From Sphingomonas mollis (GTDB lineage: Bacteria; Pseudomonadota; Alphaproteobacteria; Sphingomonadales; Sphingomonadaceae): a stretch of 64,000 bases of DNA. Position numbers and translations under genes: made by a program. Within the stretch, counting starts at the first letter, position 1. Every line of letters begins with the position of its first letter. Below the pieces are notes generated by a model. That model saw only the letters and a list, made by a program, of their open reading frames with translations. It was not told where the DNA came from and did not search any database. The stretch covers positions 124,001 to 188,000 of the forward strand of contig NZ_JAELXS010000008.1 of the NCBI RefSeq assembly GCF_016427505.1, in the 5' to 3' direction. This document shows, piece after piece, positions 37,727-50,488 of this stretch.

Positions 37727-37778
37727 AGGGGGCGGGGGCGGGCAGACAGGGCGCAGCCGCGTACGCCAGGAGGATGCT

Positions 37779-39305
37779 GTGTCGTCTACGAACTTAATGC
37801 TCGGGACGAAACGCGCGGCGGCCAAGCTGGGCGGCGGTGAAAAACGCATCGCCGCCCAGCACGCCAAGGGCAAGCTGACCGCGCGCGAGCGGCTGGACGT
37901 GCTGCTCGACGAGAACAGTTTCGAGGAACTCGACATGTTCGTCGAGCATAACTGCGTCGATTTCGGCATGCAGGATCAGGTGATCCCCGGCGACGGCGTG
38001 GTCACGGGTTCGGGCACGATCAACGGCCGCCTCGTTTTCGTCTTCAGCCAGGATTTCACCGTGTTCGGCGGGTCGCTGTCCGAGCGCCACGCCGCCAAGA
38101 TCTGCAAGGTGATGGACATGGCGATGAAGGTCGGCGCGCCGATCATCGGCCTGAACGATTCGGGCGGCGCGCGCATCCAGGAAGGCGTCGCGTCGCTGGG
38201 GGGCTATGCCGAGGTGTTCCAGCGCAATGCGCTGGCCAGTGGGGTGGTGCCGCAGCTTAGCCTCATCATGGGACCGTGCGCGGGCGGCGCGGTGTATTCA
38301 CCGGCGATGACTGACTTTATCTTCATGGTGAAGGATTCGAGCTACATGTTCGTGACCGGTCCCGATGTGGTGAAGACGGTGACGAACGAGGTGGTCAGCC
38401 AAGAGGCGCTGGGTGGCGCGGTGACGCACACCACGAAGACCAGCGTGGCCGACAATGCGTTCGAGAATGATATCGAGGCACTGCTGGCGGCGCGCGACTT
38501 CATCGATTTCCTGCCGCTGTCGAACCGGCTGCCGGTGCCCGAGCGGCCGACGGCGGATGCGTGGGACCGGATCGAGGACAGTCTCGACACGCTGATCCCG
38601 GCCAGCGCCAACCAGCCGTACGATATGCACGAGCTGATCCGGAAAGTGGTCGACGAGGGCGATTTCTTCGAAACGCAGCCGGCGCATGCGGGCAACATCA
38701 TGACCGGCTTCGGGCGGATCGAGGGGCGCACGGTGGGCTTCGTCGCGAACCAGCCGATGGTACTGGCCGGGGTGCTCGACATCAATTCGTCGAAGAAGGC
38801 GGCGCGGTTCGTGCGCTTCTGCGACGCGTTCGAGATTCCGATCGTGACGTTCGTGGATGTGCCGGGCTTCCTGCCGGGAACGGCGCAGGAGCATAACGGG
38901 ATCATCAAGCACGGCGCGAAACTGCTGTTCGCCTATGCCGAGGCGACGGTGCCGAAGATCACGGTGATTACGCGCAAGGCCTATGGCGGGGCGTATGACG
39001 TGATGGCGTCGAAGCACCTGCGCGGCGACCTGAACTATGCGTGGCCGACTGCGGAGATTGCGGTGATGGGCGCGAAGGGCGCGGTGGAGATCATCTTTCG
39101 CGGGCGTACCCCGGAAGAGATCGCAGAGCGGACGGCGGAATACGAGGCGCGCTTCGCCAACCCGTTCGTGGCGGCGGCCAAGGGCTTTATCGACGAGGTG
39201 ATCCAGCCCCATTCGACCCGGCGGCGCATCGCGCTGGGGTTACGAAAGCTGCGGGGGAAGTCGTTGGAGAATCCGTGGAAGAAGCATGACAATATTCCGT
39301 TGTGA
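37779..39305 (+). CDS. pccB: Propionyl-CoA carboxylase beta (carboxyltransferase) subunit
   Basis: 508-aa acyl-CoA carboxyltransferase. The two crotonase-like halves include [41 protein letters not shown] and [28 protein letters not shown], then [19 protein letters not shown], all typical of PccB. It transfers CO2 from carboxybiotin to propionyl-CoA, giving (S)-methylmalonyl-CoA. The GTG start has AGGAGG six bases upstream. First gene of the operon also carrying epimerase, mutase, bioB and the alpha subunit; controlled by the divergent ScfR-like gene. Confidence 0.96.
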
Positions 39306-39818: not shown

Positions 39819-40600
39819 TGGCCCCTGTGCATATCCTCACCGAGCGGCGCGGCGACGTGCTGGTCGTCACGCTCAACCGGCCCGATCGGCTGAATGCCGC
39901 GCCGCCGGCGATGTTCGAGGAGATTGCCGGTGCGCTGCGCGATCTGGATGGCGCGCGGGCGGTGCTGGTGCAGGGGGCGGGGCGGGCGTTTTGCTCCGGG
40001 GCGGATGTCGCTGGCGGTGCGCTGGCGGCGGCCGATCCGCGGGAGGCGACGTTCGCGGCGCTGACCGACAGTTATAATCCGACGCTGGCGCTGATCGCCG
40101 ATCTGGCGGTGCCGGTGGTCAGTGCGGTGCGCGGGCCGGCGGCGGGGATCGGTTGTTCGCTGGCGCTGGCCGCCGATTTCTGCGTGGCGAGCGATACCGC
40201 GTATTTCCTGCAGGCGTTCGTCAATATCGGGCTGGTCCCCGATGGCGGCGCGTCGTGGATGCTGCCGCGGCTGATCGGCAAGGCGCGGGCGGCGGAGATG
40301 ATGATGCTGGGCGAGCGGGTGTTCGCGGCCAAGGCGCTGGAGTGGGGCATGATCCACAAGATCGCCGCCGATGCGGTGCTCGACCACGAAGCCTTCGCGC
40401 TGGCCGAGCGGCTGGCGGCGGGGCCGACCTTGGCTCTGGCGGCAATCCGGCGTCAGCTTCATGCCGGCTATGAGAGCGATTATGCCGCCGCGATGGCGCG
40501 CGAGGCGGACAACCAGCGCGCGATGCGTGGCACCGCCGACGCCGTCGAGGGCGGTCGTGCGTTTCTTGAGAAGCGCACACCGGCGTTCAAGGGCGAGTAG
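39818..40600 (+). CDS. Enoyl-CoA hydratase/isomerase family protein
   Basis: 260-aa crotonase-fold enzyme. [16 protein letters not shown] is the N-terminal signature. [12 protein letters not shown] and [22 protein letters not shown] form the oxyanion hole, and [21 protein letters not shown] the catalytic region; the PDGG form (no second Glu) resembles PaaG-type isomerases and hydratases. It lies between the epimerase and mutase genes and is translationally coupled to the epimerase. It may feed propionyl-CoA from branched or odd-chain acids; exact substrate unknown. Confidence 0.9.
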
Positions 40601-40601
40601 C

Positions 40602-42932
40602 ATGGCCGAAATCGAGACGAACACCGGCGAGGATGCCGGCGCGGCACCGCCTGCGCCGCCGCAGCCCGAACCCGTCAAGCAGCCGACGCTGGCCGACTGG
40701 CAGGCCGCCGCCGCGCGTGAGGTGAAGGGCCGCGACCTGACGTGGCCGACGCCCGAGGGCATCGACGTGAAGCCGCTCTATACCGCCGATGACGTGAAGA
40801 CCGATCCCGGCCTGCCCGGCTTCGCGCCGTTCACGCGCGGCGTGCGCGCATCGATGTATGCGGGGCGGCCGTGGACGATCCGGCAATATGCGGGCTTTTC
40901 GACCGCCGAGGAATCCAACGCTTTCTATCGCCGCAATCTGGCGGCGGGGCAGAAGGGGCTATCGGTCGCGTTCGATCTGGCCACGCATCGCGGGTACGAC
41001 AGCGATCATCCGCGCGTGACCGGCGATGTCGGCAAGGCGGGGGTCGCGATCGACAGCGTCGAGGACATGAAGATCCTGTTCGACGGTATTCCGCTCGACC
41101 AGATGTCGGTCAGCATGACGATGAACGGCGCGGTGATCCCGATCCTGGCGTTCTTCATCGTCGCGGGCGAGGAACAGGGGGTGGCGCGCCACCTGCTCGA
41201 CGGGACCATCCAGAACGACATCCTGAAGGAGTTCATGGTCCGCAACACGTATATCTATCCGCCCGATCCATCGATGCGGATCATCGCAGATATCATTGCC
41301 TATACTTCGGCCGAGATGCCGAAGTTCAACAGCATCTCGATCAGCGGTTACCACATGCAGGAAGCCGGCGCGACGCAGGTGCAGGAGCTGGCCTTCACCA
41401 TCGCCGACGGCCGTGAATATGCCCGCGCGGCGATGGCGGCGGGGCTGGACATCGACAGGTTCGCCGGGCGCCTGAGCTTCTTCTTTGCGATCGGCATGAA
41501 CTTCTTCATGGAGGTCGCCAAGCTGCGCGCGGCGCGGACGTTGTGGCACCGGGTGATGACCGATCTGGGCGCGAAGGACGAACGGTCGAAGATGCTGCGC
41601 ACGCATTGCCAGACGTCGGGCGTGTCGTTGCAGGAACAGGACCCGTACAACAACGTGATCCGCACCACGATCGAGGCGATGGCGGCGATGTGCGGCGGGA
41701 CGCAAAGCCTGCACACCAACGCGCTGGACGAGGCGATCGCGCTGCCGACCGACTTTTCCGCGCGGATCGCCCGCAACACGCAGATCGTGTTGCAGGAAGA
41801 GACGGGGATGACGAAGGTCGTCGATCCGCTGGGCGGCAGCTATTATGTCGAAAGCCTGACGCAGCAACTGGTCGATCAGGCATGGACGATCATCGAGCGC
41901 GTCGAGGCGGAGGGCGGCATGGCGGCGGCGGTCGCCAAGGGCTGGCCCAAGGCGATGATCGAGGAAGCGGCGGCGGCGCGGCAGGCGCGCGTCGACCGGG
42001 GCGAGGACGTGATCGTCGGCGTCAACAAGTACCGGCTGGCGGAGCAGGATCCGATCGACATTCTCGACGTGGACAATGTCGCGGTGCGGGAGGCGCAGGT
42101 GGCGCGGTTGCAGACGATGCGGGCAACGCGGGATGAGGCGGCGTGTCAGGCGGCTCTGACGGCGTTGCGGGAGGCGGCGCAGAATCCTCCCCTACAAGGG
42201 GAGGAGGACCATGCAACGCATGGTGGAGGGGGTTCTCCCCACACGATATCGCCTGGGGAAGCCCCCCTCCGTCAGCCTGCGGCTGCCACCTCCCCGTCCC
42301 GGGGAGGACTGGAGGACAATTTGCTGGCGCTTGCCGTCGAGGCGGCGCGGGCGCGGGCTTCGCTGGGGGAGATTTCCGCCGCGATGGAGGTCGCGTTCGG
42401 GCGCTATGGTACGCAGCCGACGCCGGTCAGCGGTATCTATGGCGGTGCCTATGCCGACGATCCACGCTGGGCGCGGCTGACCGATGGCGTCGATGCCACG
42501 GAGCGTCGGCTGGGGCGGAAACCGCGGATGTTGGTCGCCAAGATGGGGCAGGACGGGCATGATCGCGGCGCCAATCTGGTCAGCAGCATGTTCGCCGATC
42601 TGGGGTTCGAGATCGTGCCGGGCCCGCTGTTCCAGACCCCGCAGGAGGTCGCCGGGCTGGCGCTGGAGAAAGACGTCGACGTCGTCGGTGCATCGTCGCT
42701 GGCGGCTGGGCACAAGACGTTGATCCCCGAGCTGATCGGCTATCTGCGCGATGCCGGGCGGCCGGATATCAAGGTGATCGCCGGCGGCGTAATTCCGGCG
42801 CAGGATTACCAGATCCTGCGCGACGCCGGTGTGCAGGCGATCTTCGGCCCCGGCACCAATCTTGTGCAGGCGGCCGAAGAGGTGTTGAGGCTGCTCGGCC
42901 ATAACATGCCGCCACAGGAGGATGCCGCATGA
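40602..42932 (+). CDS. scpA: Methylmalonyl-CoA mutase with in-frame palindromic-element insertion
   Basis: 776-aa adenosylcobalamin enzyme converting (R)-methylmalonyl-CoA to succinyl-CoA. The TIM-barrel domain (about 20-525) contains [37 protein letters not shown] and [16 protein letters not shown]. The B12 domain has the lower-ligand motif QDGHDRG and the SSL/GG motifs [11 protein letters not shown] and [10 protein letters not shown]. About 41 residues (roughly 529-569; [15 protein letters not shown] through SPSRGG) come from a palindromic repeat inserted in the interdomain linker. Without them the length is the usual 715-735. The start at 40602 follows the upstream stop by one base; an earlier in-frame start lies inside the hydratase gene. 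Confidence 0.95.
42185..42308. repeat. Palindromic element inserted in frame in the mutase gene
   Basis: The element opens with hairpin TCCTCCCCT-ACA-AGGGGAGGA (42185-42205) and then has ACCATGC-AAC-GCATGGT (42208-42224). It contains a CAGCC-TGC-GGCTG hairpin near 42273-42285 and closes with CCTCCCCG-TCC-CGGGGAGG (42289-42307). The text between is low-complexity G/C. Translation through it stays open and in frame. Type differs from the CCCCTCCCGC copies at 44305, 45522 and 50320. Confidence 0.85.
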
Positions 42933-43309
42933 TCCGATATGCACTGCTCGCCGCGCTGATGCTGGCGGGACCGGCCGTCGCCCAGACGCAGACGGCGATG
43001 AACCAGCAGGCCGGCGCCGACTGGAAAGCGGCGGATGCGGCGATGACGGTGCAGTGGCAGCGCACCTATGCGGCGATGAAGCGGCGTGATGCGGCCGATA
43101 CGACACGCGGCGGCGGGGTCGGCTATGCGGCTGCGACGCTCGCGAGCCAGCGCGCGTGGTTGCCGTTCCGCGATCGCCAGTGCGTGATCGAGGGGGCGGA
43201 GTATGCGGGCGGATCGATGCAGCCGATGGTACAGCGACAATGTCTGGCGCGGGTGACGCGCGAACGGACCGTACAATTGAAGGATATGATGTGGCAGCGG
43301 GGACGATGA
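42929..43309 (+). CDS. LprI-like (DUF1311) exported protein
   Basis: 126-aa exported protein. The signal peptide is [20 protein letters not shown]. The mature domain has [20 protein letters not shown] and [17 protein letters not shown], the Cys-containing signature of the DUF1311/LprI group, some members of which inhibit lysozyme. The ATG overlaps the mutase stop (ATGA) and its stop overlaps the bioB start (ATGA), so it is embedded in the propionyl-CoA operon, although its periplasmic role is not obviously linked. Confidence 0.85.
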
Positions 43310-44301
43310 ACGACGTGCGCAACGACTGGACGCGGGGGCAGATCGCCGACCTGTTCGACCTGCCCTTCACCGACCTGCTGTTCCGCGCGCAGACCGTCCA
43401 CCGCGCGCATCATGCGCCGGACGAGGTGCAGTTGTGCACGCTGTTGTCGATCAAGACCGGCGGTTGCCCGGAGGATTGCGGATATTGCTCGCAATCCGCC
43501 ACCGCCGACAGCGGGCTGAAGGCGGAAAAGCTGATGGACGTCGATGCCGTGCTGGCCAGCGCCGCCGAGGCGAAGGCGGCGGGGTCGCAACGCTTCTGCA
43601 TGGGTGCGGCATGGCGCAACCCCAAGGCCCGCGACATGGACAACGTGGTCGCCATGGTCGAGGGCGTGAAGGCGATGGGGCTGGAAACCTGCATGACACT
43701 GGGCATGCTGGAGGCGTCGCAGGCGCGAGCGCTGGCCGAGGCGGGCCTCGATTACTACAACCACAATATCGATACCTCGCCGGAGAATTACGGCAACGTC
43801 ATCACCACGCGGACCTTCGCGGACCGGCTGGAGACGCTGGGGCATGTTCGCGATGCGGGGATTTCGGTGTGCTGCGGCGGGATCGTCGGGATGGGTGAGA
43901 CGCGGGGCGACCGGGTCGGCTTCGTCCATGCGCTCGCCACGTTGCCGCGCCATCCGGAAAGCGTGCCGGTGAATGCGCTGGTGCCGGTGAAGGGCACGCC
44001 GCTGGGCGATATGCTGGCGGGAACGCCGATGGCGAAGATCGACGATATCGAATTCGTCCGCACCGTTGCGGTGGCGCGGATCGCGATGCCGTTGTCGATG
44101 GTACGGCTGTCGGCGGGGCGCGAGAGCATGTCGGAGGCGACGCAGGCGTTGTGCTTCATCGCGGGCGCGAATTCCATCTTCACCGGCGACAAGCTGCTGA
44201 CGACGGGCAATGCGGGCGACAGCGCGGATGCGGCGTTGCTGGCCAAGCTGGGCGTGCGACCGATGACCGGTGCGGAGCCGATGCGGGTGGCGGCGGAATA
44301 G
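43306..44301 (+). CDS. bioB: Biotin synthase
   Basis: 331-aa radical-SAM enzyme inserting sulfur into dethiobiotin. The cluster-binding CPEDCGYC (CxxxCxxC) sits in [57 protein letters not shown] and LVPVKGTPL are conserved blocks, and the second-cluster Arg region is [10 protein letters not shown]. The ATG overlaps the LprI-like stop. Placing it just before pccA links cofactor supply to the biotin-dependent carboxylase; no other bio genes are in the window. Confidence 0.96.
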
Positions 44302-44304
44302 TCC

Positions 44305-44410
44305 CCCCTCCCGCTTGCGGGAGGGGTTAGGGGAGGGTCTGTCTCTCCCGCAATCATATCGCCCGGACGCGGACAGGCCCTCCCCCGGCCCCTCCCGCAA
44401 GCGGGAGGGG
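44305..44410. repeat. CCCCTCCCGC palindromic element between bioB and pccA
   Basis: The left end CCCCTCCCGC-TT-GCGGGAGGGG (44305-44326) and right end CCCCTCCCGC-AA-GCGGGAGGGG (44389-44410) are reverse complements. The arms extend inward (TTAGGGGAGGG against CCTCCCCCGG). The right end GGGAGGGGAGAG lies 5-15 bases before the pccA ATG at 44419 and is its only Shine-Dalgarno candidate. Same type as 45522 and 50320. Confidence 0.9.
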
Positions 44411-44418
44411 AGAGTAGG

Positions 44419-46521
44419 ATGTTCAAGAAAATCCTGATCGCCAATCGTGGTGAGATCGCGTGTCGCATCATCCGCACCGCTCGGGCGATGGGGATCGCGA
44501 CCGTCGCGGTCTATTCGGATGCCGATGCGCGCAGCCGGCATGTGTTGATGGCGGACGAATCCGTGCGGCTGGGGCCGGCGCCGGCGGCTGAAAGCTATCT
44601 GAAGGCGGAGCTGATCCTGTTGGCCGCGAAGGAAACCGGCGCGGATGCGATCCATCCCGGTTACGGTTTCCTGTCGGAACGCGAGAGCTTCGCGCGGGCC
44701 TGTGCCGATGCCGGCATCGCCTTTATTGGGCCGCCGCCGTCCGCGATCGCGGCGATGGGTGACAAGATCGAATCGAAGAAGCTGGCGCAGGCGGCGGGGG
44801 TCAACGTCGTCCCCGGTTTCCTGGGCGAGATCGACGATACCGATCATGCGGTGCGGATCGCGGGGGAGATCGGTTATCCGGTGATGATGAAGGCGTCGGC
44901 GGGCGGCGGCGGCAAGGGGATGCGGCTGGCGTGGCACGAACAGGACGTGCGGGACGGCTTCGAGGCGACGAAGCGCGAGGGGCTGGCGAGCTTCGGCGAC
45001 GACCGCGTGTTCATCGAGAAGTTCATCGAGAGCCCGCGGCATATCGAAATCCAGTTGCTCGGCGACCAGCACGGCAACATCGTCTATCTGGGCGAGCGCG
45101 AATGTTCGATCCAGCGGCGTCACCAGAAGGTGGTCGAGGAGGCGCCGTCGCCCTTCGTCACGCCGGCGATGCGCCGGGCGATGGGCGAGCAGGCGGTCGC
45201 GCTGGCGCGGGCGGTGGGGTATTTCAGCGCGGGGACGGTCGAGCTGATCGTGTCGGGCGCGGATACCAGCGGCACCGGGTTCTACTTCCTCGAAATGAAC
45301 ACGCGGTTGCAGGTGGAGCATCCGGTGACCGAGGCGATCACGGGCCTCGATCTGGTCGAGCAGATGATCCGGGTGGCGGCGGGCGAGCCGCTGGCGTTCG
45401 GGCAGGACGATGTGACGCTGGACGGCTGGGCGATCGAGACGCGGGTGTATGCGGAGGACCCGTATCGGGGGTTCCTGCCGAGTATCGGGCGGCTGGTGCG
45501 GTATAATCCTCCGGTGCAATCCCCCTCCCGCTTGCGGGAGGGGTTAGGGGAGGGCCTGTCCGCAAATGATGCGGCTGAACTGACAGGCCCACCCCCAGCC
45601 CCTCCCGCAAGCGGGAGGGGGGAAGAAGAGGCCTACACCCGCATCGACGATGGCGTCGCCGAGGGGGGCGAGGTATCGATGTTCTATGACCCGATGATCG
45701 CCAAGCTCATCACCTGGGCGCCGACGCGCGAGGGGGCGATCGACGAGCAGATCGCGTCGCTGGATGCGTTCGAGATCGAGGGGCCTGGGACCAATCTCGA
45801 TTTTCTGTCGGCATTGATGCAGCATCCGCGCTTCCGCGCAGGCGCGCTGACCACGGGGTTCATCGCGGAGGAGTATCCGGACGGATTCCACGGGGCGCCG
45901 GCGGATGCGACGCTGCGTCGGACGCTGGCGGCGGTCGCGGCCTTTGCGGCGACGGCGCAGGCGGACCGGGCGCGGCGGATCGATGGGCAGCTTGGTCGGC
46001 GTCTGCCACCGCCCGCCGACTGGACCGTGCGGCTGGATGGCGTGGAACATGAGGTTCGGGTGTCCACCGATGGCATCGTGGTGGATGGCGACGCGATCGA
46101 CCTCGCGCTGGAATACACGCCGGGCGACCGGATGGTGCAAGCGGAAGCCAGTGCAGATGGGGACGACACCGCGCTGACGATCCGGCTGGCGCCGACGCGC
46201 ACCGGCTTTCGCCTGTCGACACGGGGCGCCTCGCACGATGCGCGGGTGCTGCCGGCGCGGGCCGCGCCCTATGCGCGGCACATGATCGAGAAGGTGCCGC
46301 CCGACCTGTCACGGTTCCTGCTGGCGCCGATGCCGGGGCTGCTGGTGCGGCTGGATGTCGCGGCGGGCGACCGGGTGGAGGCGGGGCAGCCGCTGGCCGT
46401 AGTGGAGGCGATGAAGATGGAGAACATCCTGCGCGCCGGGAAGACGGGCGTGGTGAAGAGTATCGAGGCGGCGGCCGGCGAGAGCCTGGCGGTGGATCAG
46501 GTGATCCTGGAACTGGAGTGA
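44419..46521 (+). CDS. pccA: Propionyl/acyl-CoA carboxylase alpha (biotin carboxylase) subunit with in-frame repeat insertion
   Basis: 700-aa biotin enzyme. Biotin carboxylase N-domain (KILIANRGEIACRIIRTARAMG), ATP-grasp (KASAGGGGKGMRLAW; ERECSIQRRHQKVVEEAPSP; FLEMNTRLQVEHPVTE), a C-domain, then the BT linker and biotinyl domain with EAMKMENIL near residue 660 (biotin Lys). It carboxylates biotin with bicarbonate and ATP for the PccB partner encoded 6.6 kb upstream in the same operon. Residues about 369-401 ([20 protein letters not shown] then GPPPAPPASGRG) are a translated 99-bp palindromic element placed between VRYNPPV and YTRIDDGV. Otherwise length is normal (about 665). Confidence 0.95.
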   Translation: MFKKILIANRGEIACRIIRTARAMGIATVAVYSDADARSRHVLMADESVRLGPAPAAESYLKAELILLAAKETGADAIHPGYGFLSERESFARACADAGIAFIGPPPSAIAAMGDKIESKKLAQAAGVNVVPGFLGEIDDTDHAVRIAGEIGYPVMMKASAGGGGKGMRLAWHEQDVRDGFEATKREGLASFGDDRVFIEKFIESPRHIEIQLLGDQHGNIVYLGERECSIQRRHQKVVEEAPSPFVTPAMRRAMGEQAVALARAVGYFSAGTVELIVSGADTSGTGFYFLEMNTRLQVEHPVTEAITGLDLVEQMIRVAAGEPLAFGQDDVTLDGWAIETRVYAEDPYRGFLPSIGRLVRYNPPVQSPSRLREGLGEGLSANDAAELTGPPPAPPASGRGEEEAYTRIDDGVAEGGEVSMFYDPMIAKLITWAPTREGAIDEQIASLDAFEIEGPGTNLDFLSALMQHPRFRAGALTTGFIAEEYPDGFHGAPADATLRRTLAAVAAFAATAQADRARRIDGQLGRRLPPPADWTVRLDGVEHEVRVSTDGIVVDGDAIDLALEYTPGDRMVQAEASADGDDTALTIRLAPTRTGFRLSTRGASHDARVLPARAAPYARHMIEKVPPDLSRFLLAPMPGLLVRLDVAAGDRVEAGQPLAVVEAMKMENILRAGKTGVVKSIEAAAGESLAVDQVILELE
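45522..45620. repeat. 99-bp CCCCTCCCGC palindromic element inside pccA
   Basis: Left arm 45522-45560 and right arm 45582-45620 (39 bp each) are reverse complements at 36 of 39 positions around a 21-bp centre. Outer ends are CCCCTCCCGC-TT-GCGGGAGGGG and its complement. The length, 99 bp, is exactly 33 codons, so the pccA frame is kept and no stop is introduced. Confidence 0.92.
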
Positions 46522-46592: not shown

Positions 46593-48110
46593 ATGGTCCG
46601 AGCCCGCGTTTCCCTGATTGCCGCCACGCTCGCGTTGGGGGCGTGTTCCGTCGGGCCGGATTATCGGCCGCAGACGCCGACCGAACTGGGCGTACCGGTC
46701 GCCTATTCGGTGCCGGCCGCGCCGACGCCGGAAGACCTGACGCGCTGGTGGAACCGGTTCGACGATCCGGTGCTCGGCCGGCTGGTCGAACAGGCGGCGA
46801 CCGCGAACACCGATATCGCACAGGCCGTCGCCCGCCTGCGTCAGTCGCGCGAGGCGCTGGTGCAGAGCAGGGCCAGCCTGTTGCCGACGCTGTCAGGATC
46901 GACCGGCTATCAGCGCAACGAGAATCTGCGGGGCGGCGGCCGGTCGTTCACGCTGCCCGACGGCACCGTCGTCGATACCGGCGCGGGCGGAACGAACAGC
47001 TATTCGATCGGACTGTCGGCCAGCTATCAGGTCGGCATCTTCGGTGAATTGCGCCGCACCGTGGAAGCGAGCCGCGCCCAGTATGAGGCGTCGGGATTCG
47101 ATTATGCCGCCGTCCTGTTGTCGGTGCAGAGCGAGGTTGCGCGCAATTACGTGATCGCGCGGGGATTGCAGGCGCAGATCGCCAATGCGCGCGCGTCGCT
47201 GGGCATCCAGGACGACAATCTGGAGATCGCGGGTTTCCGCGTGCAGGCGGGGCTCGTCTCCAGTCTGGACAGTGAACAGGCGCGGGCGCAGCGGGCGCAG
47301 ACCGCCGCGACGATCCCCTCGCTGGAACAGCAATACAACGCCGCCGTGTCGCGGCTGGGCGTGCTGACCGGGCAGGCGCCGGGCGCGTTGAAGCCCGAGT
47401 TGGCGACGACGAACCCGATTCCTGTCGGGCCCGCGACGGTCGGTATCGGCATTCCCGCCGATACGCTGCGCCAGCGCCCCGACGTCCGCTCCGCCGAACG
47501 CGCGCTGGCCGCGGCGACGGCGCAGATCGGCGTGGCGAAGGCGCGGCTGTACCCGGCGCTGGCGATCACGGGGAACATCAACACCAACGCGACGTCGCTG
47601 GCCGGGATCGGCGATGCAATCACCGGCGGCCTGTTCGCGGGATTGACGCAGGCGATCTTCAACGGCGGGCGACTGCGCAGCCAGGTGCGGACGCAGGAGG
47701 CGGTCGCGGATGGTGCGCTGGCCAATTACAAGGGCATCGTGCTGCTGGCGCTGGAGGATGTCGAGAACGCGATCGTCGCGTTGACGACGGCGCAGGCGCG
47801 CGAGCGGGAATTCGCGATCGCGCTGGATGCCGCGAACAATTCCGCGATCCTCAGCCGCAGTCAATATCGATCCGGCCTGACCGACTTCACCACGTTGAAC
47901 CAGCAGGAGACGGCGCTGCTGTCGGCGCGCAACGGTTTGACGCAGGCGCGCGCCGATGCGTCGTCGGCGCAGATCGCGCTGTACGTCGCGCTCGGCGGCG
48001 GATGGGATGCAACGACCGTGCCCGAAGCGCCGCCGCGGACGATCGCCGCCGGCACCAGCGCCGTGCCCGTTCCCGTGACGACGACCACTCCCGCAAGCGA
48101 GACCCGTTGA
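46593..48110 (+). CDS. Outer-membrane efflux lipoprotein, NodT/TolC family
   Basis: 505-aa outer-membrane factor. The signal peptide ends in lipobox LGAC (Cys18) followed by SVGPDYRPQTP, the NodT-family start. Two OEP repeats follow with long helices: NTDIAQAVARLRQSREALVQ, LRQRPDVRSAERALAAATAQ (the DIRxAE block) and LYPALAITG. The C-terminal tail is Thr/Pro-rich. It forms the exit duct of a tripartite pump with the MacA-like adaptor (TGATG overlap) and MacB-like ABC proteins encoded downstream. Substrate unknown. Confidence 0.93.
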   Translation: MVRARVSLIAATLALGACSVGPDYRPQTPTELGVPVAYSVPAAPTPEDLTRWWNRFDDPVLGRLVEQAATANTDIAQAVARLRQSREALVQSRASLLPTLSGSTGYQRNENLRGGGRSFTLPDGTVVDTGAGGTNSYSIGLSASYQVGIFGELRRTVEASRAQYEASGFDYAAVLLSVQSEVARNYVIARGLQAQIANARASLGIQDDNLEIAGFRVQAGLVSSLDSEQARAQRAQTAATIPSLEQQYNAAVSRLGVLTGQAPGALKPELATTNPIPVGPATVGIGIPADTLRQRPDVRSAERALAAATAQIGVAKARLYPALAITGNINTNATSLAGIGDAITGGLFAGLTQAIFNGGRLRSQVRTQEAVADGALANYKGIVLLALEDVENAIVALTTAQAREREFAIALDAANNSAILSRSQYRSGLTDFTTLNQQETALLSARNGLTQARADASSAQIALYVALGGGWDATTVPEAPPRTIAAGTSAVPVPVTTTTPASETR

Positions 48111-49477
48111 TGGCCGACCAGAGCACCGATGAATTTCTGGGCGTGAAGGCGGCGCCGGCGTGGCGTCGCTACGTCAAATGGGTGGTGATCGCGGTCGTCG
48201 TGGTGGCGCTGGCGCTGTTGCTCAACCGTTGTTTCGGTGGATCGGATGCGGTGCAATATTCGACTGCTCCGGCGCAGCGCGGCAATCTGACGGTCAGCGT
48301 GTCGGCGACGGGCAAGCTGGCGCCGACCAATCAGGTGACGGTTGGATCGCAGTTGTCGGGTCTCGTCACCAAGGTGGTGGTCGATGTGAACGACCGCGTC
48401 ACCGCCGGCCAGCCGCTGGCGCTGATCGATCCCGAACAGATCGACGACCAGATCCGCGCAGGCGAGGCGACGCTGGCCGCCAATCAGGCGCAGGTCGGGC
48501 AGGCGCAGGCGACGGTGGCCGAGGCGAATGCGCAGTTCGCGCGGTTGCAGGAGGTGTATCGCTTGTCGAATGGTCGTGTGCCGTCGGCCACCGAATTGCA
48601 GACCGGTCGCGCCAATGCGCAGCGCGCGGTGGCGGGGCTGAAGACCGCACAGGCCAATGTCGCCGCCGCGCGTGCGCAGCTGGCGCAATCGCAGACGCAG
48701 CGCAGCCGCGCGATCATCCGCAGTCCCGTATCGGGCGTGGTGCTGGCGCGGCAGGTCGATCCCGGCCAGACCGTCGCCGCCTCGTTCAACACGCCGACGC
48801 TGTTCGTGATCGCCGAGGACCTGACCAAGATGAAGCTGGAGGTCGCGATCGACGAGGCGGATGTCGGCGAGGTGAAGCTGGGCCAGAAAGCGAACTTCAC
48901 CGTCGATGCCTTTCCGGGACAGACCTTTCCGGCGGAGATCACGCGGGTCGATCTGGGATCGAACCTGACGGTCAGTTCGGCCACCGCCTCGACATCGACC
49001 ACCACGACGTCGACCACCGGGCAGGTGGTAAGTTATGCCGCCGATCTGACGGTCGCCAATCCGTCCGGGCAATTGCGGCCGGGGATGACGGCAACGGCGG
49101 ATATCGTGACGTCGGACAAGCGCAACGTGCTGCTGGTGCCCAACGCGGCCTTGCGGTTCAAGCCGACGGCGGGAGCCGGTGGCGCGCAGGGAGGCATCGC
49201 CAGTTCGCTGACCTTCCGTCCGCGTCGCGACCGGCCGGAGCGGACCGCGACGCTGGGCCGGGGTGCGACACAGACGGTGTATGTGAAGTCGGCGGACGGC
49301 ACGCCAAAGGCGGTGCAGATCACCACCGGCGACAGCAACGGCACGATGACCGAGGTGCTGGGCGGCGACCTGAAACCCGGTGCGCAGGTTATCACCGGGC
49401 AACTGGCGAGCGGCGACACCGCCGCCGCGCCGCGCGCGGGCGGGCAGCGTCGACAGGGTGGCGCCGGTGGGCAGTGA
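48110..49477 (+). CDS. MacA-like periplasmic adaptor (membrane fusion protein)
   Basis: 455 aa. N-terminal membrane anchor VKWVVIAVVVVALALLLNRC, then lipoyl half VSVSATGKLAPTNQVTVGSQ, and a coiled-coil hairpin of about 100 residues (AGEATLAANQAQVGQAQATV through TQRSRAIIRSP). The second lipoyl half is SPVSGVVLARQVDPGQTVAA, followed by a beta-barrel with an unusual Ser/Thr run (TASTSTTTTSTTGQ), a membrane-proximal domain and a Gly/Arg-rich tail. It links the MacB-type ABC permease to the outer-membrane factor. ATG overlaps the NodT gene stop. Confidence 0.93.
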   Translation: MADQSTDEFLGVKAAPAWRRYVKWVVIAVVVVALALLLNRCFGGSDAVQYSTAPAQRGNLTVSVSATGKLAPTNQVTVGSQLSGLVTKVVVDVNDRVTAGQPLALIDPEQIDDQIRAGEATLAANQAQVGQAQATVAEANAQFARLQEVYRLSNGRVPSATELQTGRANAQRAVAGLKTAQANVAAARAQLAQSQTQRSRAIIRSPVSGVVLARQVDPGQTVAASFNTPTLFVIAEDLTKMKLEVAIDEADVGEVKLGQKANFTVDAFPGQTFPAEITRVDLGSNLTVSSATASTSTTTTSTTGQVVSYAADLTVANPSGQLRPGMTATADIVTSDKRNVLLVPNAALRFKPTAGAGGAQGGIASSLTFRPRRDRPERTATLGRGATQTVYVKSADGTPKAVQITTGDSNGTMTEVLGGDLKPGAQVITGQLASGDTAAAPRAGGQRRQGGAGGQ

Positions 49478-49485
49478 GGTGTTCT

Positions 49486-49600
49486 CCCTCTCCCCTTCAG
49501 GGGAGAGGGTCGGGGAGAGGGGGATGTCATTGACGTTTCGCACTCCCCCTCTCCCGCCATCGCTTCGCTCGGCACTCTCTCCCCTGAAGGGGAGAGGGCA
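49486..49600. repeat. CCCTCTCCCC palindromic element between macA- and macB-like genes
   Basis: The left hairpin CCCTCTCCCC-TTCA-GGGGAGAGGG (49486-49509) and right hairpin CTCTCCCC-TGAA-GGGGAGAG (49577-49596) are complementary to each other, with degenerate GGGAGAGGGGG/CCCCCTCTCCC in between. The GGGGAGAG at 49589-49596 is seven bases before the ATPase ATG and serves as its Shine-Dalgarno. Confidence 0.88.
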
Positions 49601-49603
49601 GGG

Positions 49604-50488
49604 ATGACCGTTCCCCTCATCTCCCTTCGCGGCGTCACCAAGGTCTATGGATCGGGGGCGACGCAGTTTCAGGCGTTGAAGGGCGTCGATCTCGATATCA
49701 CCGGCGGCGATTTCGTGGCGGTGATGGGACCGTCGGGATCGGGCAAGTCGACGACGATGAACATTCTCGGCTGTCTCGACATGCCGTCGGCGGGCGAGTT
49801 CACGTTTCGCGGCCATCATATCGAGACGCTGGACCGCGATCAGCGGGCGTTGCTGCGGCGGAAGTATCTCGGTTTCGTGTTTCAGGGCTTCAACCTGTTG
49901 TCGCGCACCTCTGCACTGGAGAATGTCGAACTGCCGCTGCTGTATCGCGGCGAGGACAAGCGGTCGCGGCGAGAGCTGGGGATGGCGGCGCTCGACAAGG
50001 TGGGGCTGGCCGACTGGTGGGACCATACGCCCGCCGAACTGTCCGGCGGCCAGCAACAGCGCGTGGCGATCGCTCGGGCGATCGTGACCAGTCCCGACGT
50101 GCTGTTGGCGGACGAGCCGACCGGCAATCTGGATTCAGAACGCTCGGTGGAAATCATGCAACTGCTCACCACGCTGAACCGGGACAGCGGCATCACTGTG
50201 CTGATGGTGACGCACGAGCCCGACATGGCGGCGTTCGCGCGGACGGTGGTGCATTTCAAGGACGGGCTGGTGGAGCGGATCGAGGCGCAACATCGGCAGG
50301 GTGAGGCGGTGGAGGAATCCCCCTCCCGCTTGCGGGAGGGGTTAGGGGTGGGGCTGTCCCCAACAACTAGCTCCGATACTGGTGGACAGGCCCACCCCCA
50401 GCCCAGTTCGGGGTCGGCTGTGCCCCCGGCACAGCCTGAACAGCGTGGGACGCTGTTCACCCCGAACTCGCAAGCGGGAGGGGAGTAG
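49604..50488 (+). CDS. MacB-type ABC transporter ATP-binding protein with repeat-derived C-terminal tail
   Basis: 294 aa. Walker [10 protein letters not shown] near residue 43, signature LSGGQQQR near 146, Walker [15 protein letters not shown] and the H-loop VTHEP are intact. It is the LolD/MacB-type ATPase energising the permease encoded next. The natural protein should end near residue 238 (HRQGEAVEE). The last about 56 residues ([15 protein letters not shown] through [10 protein letters not shown]) are translated from a palindromic element, and the TAG stop lies just beyond its right end. The permease ATG follows the stop directly. Confidence 0.93.
50320..50483. repeat. CCCCTCCCGC palindromic element forming the 3' end of the ATPase gene, with nested insertion
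   Basis: Left end CCCCTCCCGC-TT-GCGGGAGGGG (50320-50341). The right arm is recognisable (GGACAGGCCCACCCCCAGCCC; CGCAAGCGGGAGGGG) but is interrupted by a 64-bp nested element at 50405-50468 that replaces about four bases. The right end GGGAGGGGAG lies five bases before the permease ATG (50489) and is its ribosome binding site. Confidence 0.9.
50405..50468. repeat. Nested 64-bp element folding as a perfect three-way junction
   Basis: Closing stem AGTTCGGGGT (50405-50414) with ACCCCGAACT (50459-50468). Arm 2 is GGCTGTGCC-CCC-GGCACAGCC (50416-50436). Arm 3 is GAACAGCGT-GGG-ACGCTGTTC (50438-50458). All three stems (10, 9 and 9 bp) are perfect, with a single unpaired base at two junction positions. 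It interrupts the right arm of the host palindromic element. Confidence 0.9.

Follow-up and report, generated by a model that had tools for sequence, protein, structure and literature searches.

A loop of propionyl-CoA carboxylase in Sphingomonas holds in-frame palindromic repeats of many families

In Sphingomonas, the same site in PccA, the alpha subunit of propionyl-CoA carboxylase, has been hit by many families of small palindromic repeats. A repeat-derived insert was found in one loop of the protein in 71 of 149 pccA rows from the genus (47 labelled by motif and 24 by eye). One of these inserts lies in the pccA of Sphingomonas mollis, on the 64,000-nucleotide stretch of DNA that was analysed (hereafter the window). 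The first-pass annotation of the window had described this single element, and the use of the same site by many families goes beyond it. The explanation that we favour, and consider probable, is that small palindromic repeats insert widely, that copies survive where the protein tolerates the peptide and that the PccA loop is so refilled by one family or another.

The palindromic element of the window's pccA belongs to family F1 (Table 1) and is 101 bp long. Its arms (45521-45560 and 45582-45621) are 40 nt each and 93% complementary, with a spacer of 21 nt. It had been annotated as a 99-bp palindrome with 39-bp arms; the near-perfect inverted repeat was recovered, with each end one base longer. 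Terminal inverted repeats, as expected of a MITE, were present. The terminal palindrome CCCTCCCGCNNGCGGGAGGG occurred five times in the window with up to three mismatches, whereas 100 shuffled sequences gave 0.26 on average and never as many as five. Folding of 45512-45630 gave a z score of -10.6 as DNA, and -94.7 kcal/mol with a z score of -9.9 as RNA. A chance origin was considered and rejected. A search of the element against Rfam gave matches solely below the gathering score, mostly to microRNA-hairpin models.

The product of the ORF at 44419-46521 carries all five expected domains, Biotin_carb_N, CPSase_L_D2, Biotin_carb_C, PCC_BT and Biotin_lipoyl, and thus has the biotin carboxylase, PCC_BT and biotinyl domains of PccA. 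This narrows the earlier assignment of the host gene to an acyl-CoA carboxylase alpha subunit. The ORF is open across the element, which would be translated in frame without a stop as had been proposed, and the enzyme gene bears a repeat-derived stretch. One strand of the window carries the carboxyltransferase gene that is probably pccB, a methylmalonyl-CoA mutase gene, bioB and pccA.

Table 1. Positions of the repeat elements and their host or neighbouring genes in the window.
Feature	Position	Strand	Basis
pccA, propionyl-CoA carboxylase alpha subunit, 700 aa	44419..46521	+	ORF, domains; best solved relative 3n6r
Palindromic repeat element, family F1, in frame as codons ~368-401 of pccA	45521..45621		Inverted repeat, fold, model pLDDT <50 at 374-401
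Left terminal hairpin CCCTCCCGCTTGCGGGAGGG of the pccA F1 element	45523..45542
Right terminal hairpin CCCTCCCGCAAGCGGGAGGG of the pccA F1 element	45600..45619
Carboxyltransferase ORF, probably pccB	37728..39302	+	Context
Biotin synthase bioB	43156..44301	+	Context
Full intergenic F1 copy, between bioB and pccA	44304..44411
F1 copy (one end typical), in frame within the C-terminal extension of the ABC ATPase ORF 49604-50488	50319..50404
F8-type palindromic element, in frame in the mutase linker (ORF 40353-42929), ~41 extra residues	42183..42308

Family F1 is multicopy in the window's genome (G000). After 60 rows from both strands had been merged and two weak rows (E of 0.35) dropped, 27 F1 sites were obtained, of which 12 matched over 95 or more of the 101 bases and the rest were partial or single ends. 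Two intergenic copies had been annotated in the window, at 44305 and 50320. The first is a full intergenic element, and the second proved to lie inside the ABC ATPase ORF, which is followed by a gene with MacB_PCD and FtsX domains. In the tail of this ATPase (50319-50458), the F1 end is followed by a different terminal module, CCCAGTTCGGGG.... Modules similar to CCCAGTTCGGGG follow F1 ends at other sites too (e.g., L018 and L029), and the elements therefore look like mosaics. An intergenic inverted repeat of another type, with CCCTCTCCCCTTCAGGGGAGAGGG ends and 25-nt arms (96%), is found at 49486-49598, between the ORF at 48002-49477 and that of the ABC ATPase.

The search of the genome for copies within coding sequences, suggested with the first-pass annotation, found F1 in frame at four genic loci (L035, L022, L030, and L024), as judged by Pfam domain spans. 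In glyS, the element spans residues 378-411, and the PF02092 match extends from residue 6 to 634. The element of leuS (residues 244-274) lies between the catalytic- and editing-domain matches, that of an ileS/valS-type synthetase gene is at residues 587-614, and that of bchB (residues 446-473) is between two domains. The copy most similar to that of pccA is the one in glyS, with 88% identity and the same reading frame, and the reading frames of the leuS and bchB copies differ from that of the pccA copy. In addition, F1 copies were seen by eye just upstream of the starts of ilvH, hslU, an FAA hydrolase gene and uppS. In carA (L025:1947-3249, contig C24 of the same genome), a 22-bp F1-type hairpin containing a G run coincides exactly with a break of the frame: the ORF with the CPSase_sm_chain domain stops at the hairpin, and the GATase domain goes on in another frame. 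This break may stem from an error in sequencing, from decay or slippage, or from a second copy.

A total of 228 distinct PccA loops were compared, comprising 79 named rows and the 149 genus rows, the window included. The genus rows were taken from the matches listed, ranked by similarity to the window protein, and are thus a non-random sample; 280 of 295 genus genomes matched, 100 of the further genus rows were added to the set by fetching and a few genomes contribute two rows. Five loci identical around the loop to named loci were dropped from the 149, two with inserts (L268 and L165) and three without (L242, L271, and L136). The loop finder demands an open frame and therefore cannot count broken genes. 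It missed L112 and L175, and L175, which is outside the 149, holds an open F8-type element by eye.

The loop, which extends from the Tyr after GRLVR to the Arg of RVDDGV, ranged from 9 to 79 residues across the 228 sequences. Among the 83 loops of at least 28 residues, the fold z score was below -3 in 56 and the inverted-repeat score was at least 12 in 60; the corresponding numbers for the 46 loops of 20-27 residues were 2 and 0. Thirteen of the 23 long loops scoring below 12 were named rows of other lineages, largely Rhodobacterales, showing that the loop length varies without elements too. Recognised repeats were found in four named rows (L036, L045, L052, and L053), all from Sphingomonas, of which L045 and L053 score below 12.

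Within the genus rows, an inverted-repeat score of at least 12 was reached by 58 of the 71 labelled inserts vs. none of the 78 unlabelled rows, which may nevertheless hide decayed elements. Most unlabelled loops were of 9-22 residues, and the PccA of the window's relative G224 (L148), 95% identical over residues 1-367, had a 13-residue loop without a repeat. Inverted repeats scoring at least 14 were present in 55 of the 149 genus loops (13.3 kb), compared with 5 in the remaining 285 kb of the same genes, one of which is a real second element: the PccA of L263 (G115) carries, besides an F3-like insert in the usual loop, an F4 copy in its BT domain that is read in another frame. Of the 143 entries of at least 8 residues on an insertion map built from 147 complete proteins, the loop accounted for 130 and the BT domain for 13; because the reference loop has 9 residues, ordinary variation in length explains many of the 130.

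Whether the 33 residues described in the first-pass annotation are missing from orthologues has no single answer, as some loops are shorter and others hold a different repeat at the same place. The same peptide was not found in distant orthologues without the palindrome among the 228 distinct loops. The nearest approaches came from within the genus. L045, from a Sphingomonas MAG, is 75% identical and has a weak palindrome (inverted-repeat score of 8). The closest relative of the window among the matches listed, L117, whose PccA is 94% identical, has a loop with a fold z score of +0.6 and no palindrome left; by eye this loop resembles an F1 element that has decayed and stands in a different frame.

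The labels of the 71 genus inserts were F4 (19), F1 (17), F3 (10), F6 (8), F2 (6), F8 (6), F5 (3), and F10 (2). BLAST between the inserts, with queries that included flanking host codons, linked 337 pairs within labels and 28 between labels at E≤1e-5, the latter being 27 F1-F2 pairs and one F1-F6 pair. The resulting groups were F1+F2+F6, F3, F4, F5, F8, and F10, with one unlinked F4 row (L196) set aside; the eight labels form at least six groups unlinked at this threshold. At E≤1e-3, there were 69 between-label pairs, including F2-F8, F4-F6, and F3-F6.

All seven families tested for copy number (F1, F2, F3, F4, F5, F6, and F8) were multicopy in a host genome that carries the family in its pccA. 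With both strands counted, the host-genome matches were at least 84 for F3 (G009), 42 for F4 (G205), 80 for F5 (G020), 82 for F6 (G010), 82 for F2 (G284), and 47 for F8 (G017). The window's genome contributed 9, 50, 79, 9, 13, and 50 matches for F3, F4, F5, F6, F2, and F8, respectively, among the matches listed. Given that many F5 copies in G020 were 94-97% identical to its pccA insert, the insertion there looks recent. In the pccA loop of L220 (G291), the halves of F4 are in swapped order, an inside-out arrangement hinting at rearrangement or at two single repeats.

The occupant of the loop changed repeatedly among relatives. On a FastTree phylogeny of pccA codons from which the loop had been removed, the labels required at least 47 changes, gain and loss not being told apart by parsimony, compared with a mean of 67.7 and a minimum of 62 for shuffled labels. 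The labels thus partly follow the tree, as expected with inheritance for a while and then change. After branches below a support of 70-95 were collapsed, about 42-44 changes were needed, which is an estimate because the collapsing method was greedy. Different families were found despite identities outside the loop of 95.9% (F4 in L207 and F1 in L198), 95.3% (F6 in L166 and F4 in L156), and 95.0% (F2 in L152 and F5 in L126). Moreover, F1 was read in two codon phases in the pccA loop, in 9 and 8 rows, so it is the DNA that recurs and not a peptide. Stops were scarce: the six F8 inserts were open in nearly all six frames, and the F1 inserts, with two F10 rows counted in, in several. The paucity of stops in the element copies explains how in-frame reading is possible. 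Finally, the short loops of L135, L193, L209, L161, and L124 contained a single hairpin, which suggests in-frame deletion of elements.

The position of the insert was further examined in AlphaFold models. For the PccA of the window (41 sequences), the mean pLDDT was 83.8 and the sole long stretch below 50 comprised residues 374-401; for that of L036 (33 sequences), the mean was 83.4 and the corresponding stretch was 369-413. In both models this stretch is the insert and lies between two strands. Its low predicted confidence fits a disordered loop and is no proof of one. The modelled fold matches the structures of PCC, MCC, and biotin carboxylase. In the numbering of Escherichia coli AccC, the alignment placed the insert between the equivalents of Phe363 and Arg366; a location beside Arg338 was rejected, as Arg338 aligns with residue 342 of PccA. 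We take Phe363, Arg366 and Glu23 of AccC to be dimer-interface residues, and the AccC mutants F363A and E23R exist according to PDB titles. In PCC the BC domains lie at the periphery, where the loop would be unconstrained.

A second site is the linker between the catalytic and B12 domains of methylmalonyl-CoA mutase, where the window's protein has its extra residues compared with 2 in human MUT. The linker was readable in 40 of 41 genus rows, i.e., the window and 40 regions upstream of pccA. A full element was present in 6 of these 40 (the window, L280, L283, L300, L311, and L314); 32 of the other 34 linkers were of the short form and 2 were slightly longer (L277 and L315). The window's relatives G031 (L277) and G224 (L278) had 9 and 4 linker residues, respectively. 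Long linkers were also found in the named rows L079 (S. yabuuchiae) and L052 (S. segetis). The full elements appear by eye to be of one family, and inheritance with losses is therefore possible at this site.

These results are consistent with the following scheme, which we regard as probable. Small non-autonomous REP/MITE-like palindromes, with tens of copies per family and genome, would insert at many sites of Sphingomonas genomes, and a genic copy would persist only at positions where the protein can accommodate added residues. Two such tolerant places would be the mutase linker and, in the biotin-carboxylase domain of PccA, the hairpin loop immediately ahead of the equivalent of AccC Arg366, and many copies, being stop-free in several frames, could be read through. 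Inserted copies would then decay by substitution and in-frame deletion, while other families land in the same loop; the outcome would be turnover while the enzyme stays functional. The scheme presumes that tolerance of the inserts is neutral, that PccA is made with the insert and works, and that elements are lost by deletion, each of which we infer.

Tolerance alone may not suffice. In a rough estimate that assumes 150-400 elements and 0.4 Mb of intergenic sequence in each genome, a 45-nt tolerant target would be occupied in about 2-4% of genomes, whereas about 48% of rows were occupied, an excess of about tenfold or more over an expectation built on assumed numbers. Targeting at the DNA level, or some influence of the palindrome in residence, may therefore contribute: the site, or a palindrome already there, may attract or template further palindromes through a cruciform or a lagging-strand hairpin. 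Such a hotspot is a real possibility, if clearly a less likely one than tolerance, with which it may combine. It would agree with the different families in close relatives and with the single family seen by eye in the full mutase-linker elements, and the single-hairpin short forms and the inside-out F4 of L220 suggest rearrangement at the palindrome. However, the distance from the Tyr codon to the outermost detected repeat is 0-40 nt in 52 of the 55 rows and greater in 3, so there is no single target position, and little sequence that could guide homologous exchange is common to most families. By eye, the insert junctions viewed showed no recognisable target-site duplication. The window's genome had no match to the Y1 (RAYT-type) transposase family PF01797, which matched 5 of 14 control genomes and 33 of the 295 genus genomes; RAYTs are thus no general answer.

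It is unlikely that the insert itself is selected, i.e., that a long disordered peptide, or an mRNA hairpin acting in translation pausing or PCC assembly, is useful and can be supplied by any palindrome. The 71 rows with labelled inserts and the very stable mRNA hairpin of the window's element point in this direction, but the 78 rows without a labelled insert mostly have short loops, one family uses two frames, and a long loop can remain after its palindrome is lost, as in L117. Descent of all present inserts from one ancient insertion is scarcely credible: some close relatives do share a family, probably by descent (F4 in L121, L176, and L217), and the 47 label changes are fewer than the shuffled minimum, but the BLAST groups are unlinked, seven families match multicopy sets in host genomes and close relatives differ in family. 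That pccA is a pseudogene or its insert an assembly artefact, for which no support was found, deserves as little credit, as from its sequence the gene does not look inactive, having an intact ORF with all domains, many invariant columns across 41 aligned proteins and carboxyltransferase and mutase genes nearby, and the pattern recurs in many independent assemblies.

The parallel with the palindromic elements of Rickettsia that was drawn in the first-pass annotation is apt. In the available descriptions, these elements are about 150 bp long, with several families per genome, and many are in frame in genes of unrelated function (PMC10969869, PMC3733652). Similar to them, F1 is a multicopy palindrome, at 101 bp within the range of about 100-150 bp, and is in frame in genes that stay open, namely pccA and, by domain spans, glyS, leuS, the ileS/valS-type gene, and bchB. 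Different from the Rickettsia elements, which according to the same descriptions are spread over many genes and each encode a conserved peptide (PMC10969869, PMC3733652), many families share one loop in PccA and F1 is without one conserved peptide.

As described in the main text of Di Nocera et al. (2013; PMC3733652), REPs are found inside ORFs of several bacteria, including the tRNA synthetase genes of E. lithoralis and S. alaskensis, and S. wittichii and S. chlorophenolicum have several CGTC families side by side. The same paper describes two Xanthomonas species whose recB genes contain different REPs in roughly the same position, compared with 71 of 149 rows for the PccA loop. The word "carboxylase" does not occur in that main text. 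F1 ends (CCCCTCCCGC...) differ from those of GTAG/CGTC-tagged REPs in having no tag by eye, whereas F3, F5, and F6 do begin with GTCA or CGTCA. REPINs and BIMEs have hairpins in inverted pairs as ends and are associated with RAYT transposases. The ends of the Sphingomonas elements are also hairpins in inverted pairs, but different from RAYT-mobilised REPINs, the window's genome is without a PF01797 match. In their available text, a 2025 survey defines REPs as seldom overlapping coding regions (PMC12306157), and a 2024 review considers it merely conceivable that proteins of other prokaryotes evolve in a similar way (PMC10969869). In-frame palindromes in Rickettsia and intragenic REPs were thus already known; an enzyme loop hit by many repeat families, as in PccA, was not found in the literature searched, which left most subscription papers and the supplement of PMC3733652 out of reach.

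The best-known in-frame palindromes are those of the obligate parasite Rickettsia; in Sphingomonas it is a metabolic enzyme that shows their frequent insertion and turnover. As judged from its gene, an apparently still functional protein is being given new segments by mobile repeats again and again. Relatives with different occupants of the loop, together with the empty sites at the second locus, form a natural series for studying the effects of foreign peptides and the site choice of the elements. More tentatively, certain enzyme loops may be standing docking sites, where the site or a resident palindrome attracts more elements and the elements are shaped for reading in several frames. If so, ordinary free-living bacteria would have in mobile repeats a continuing supply of new protein segments, and one that can be tested.
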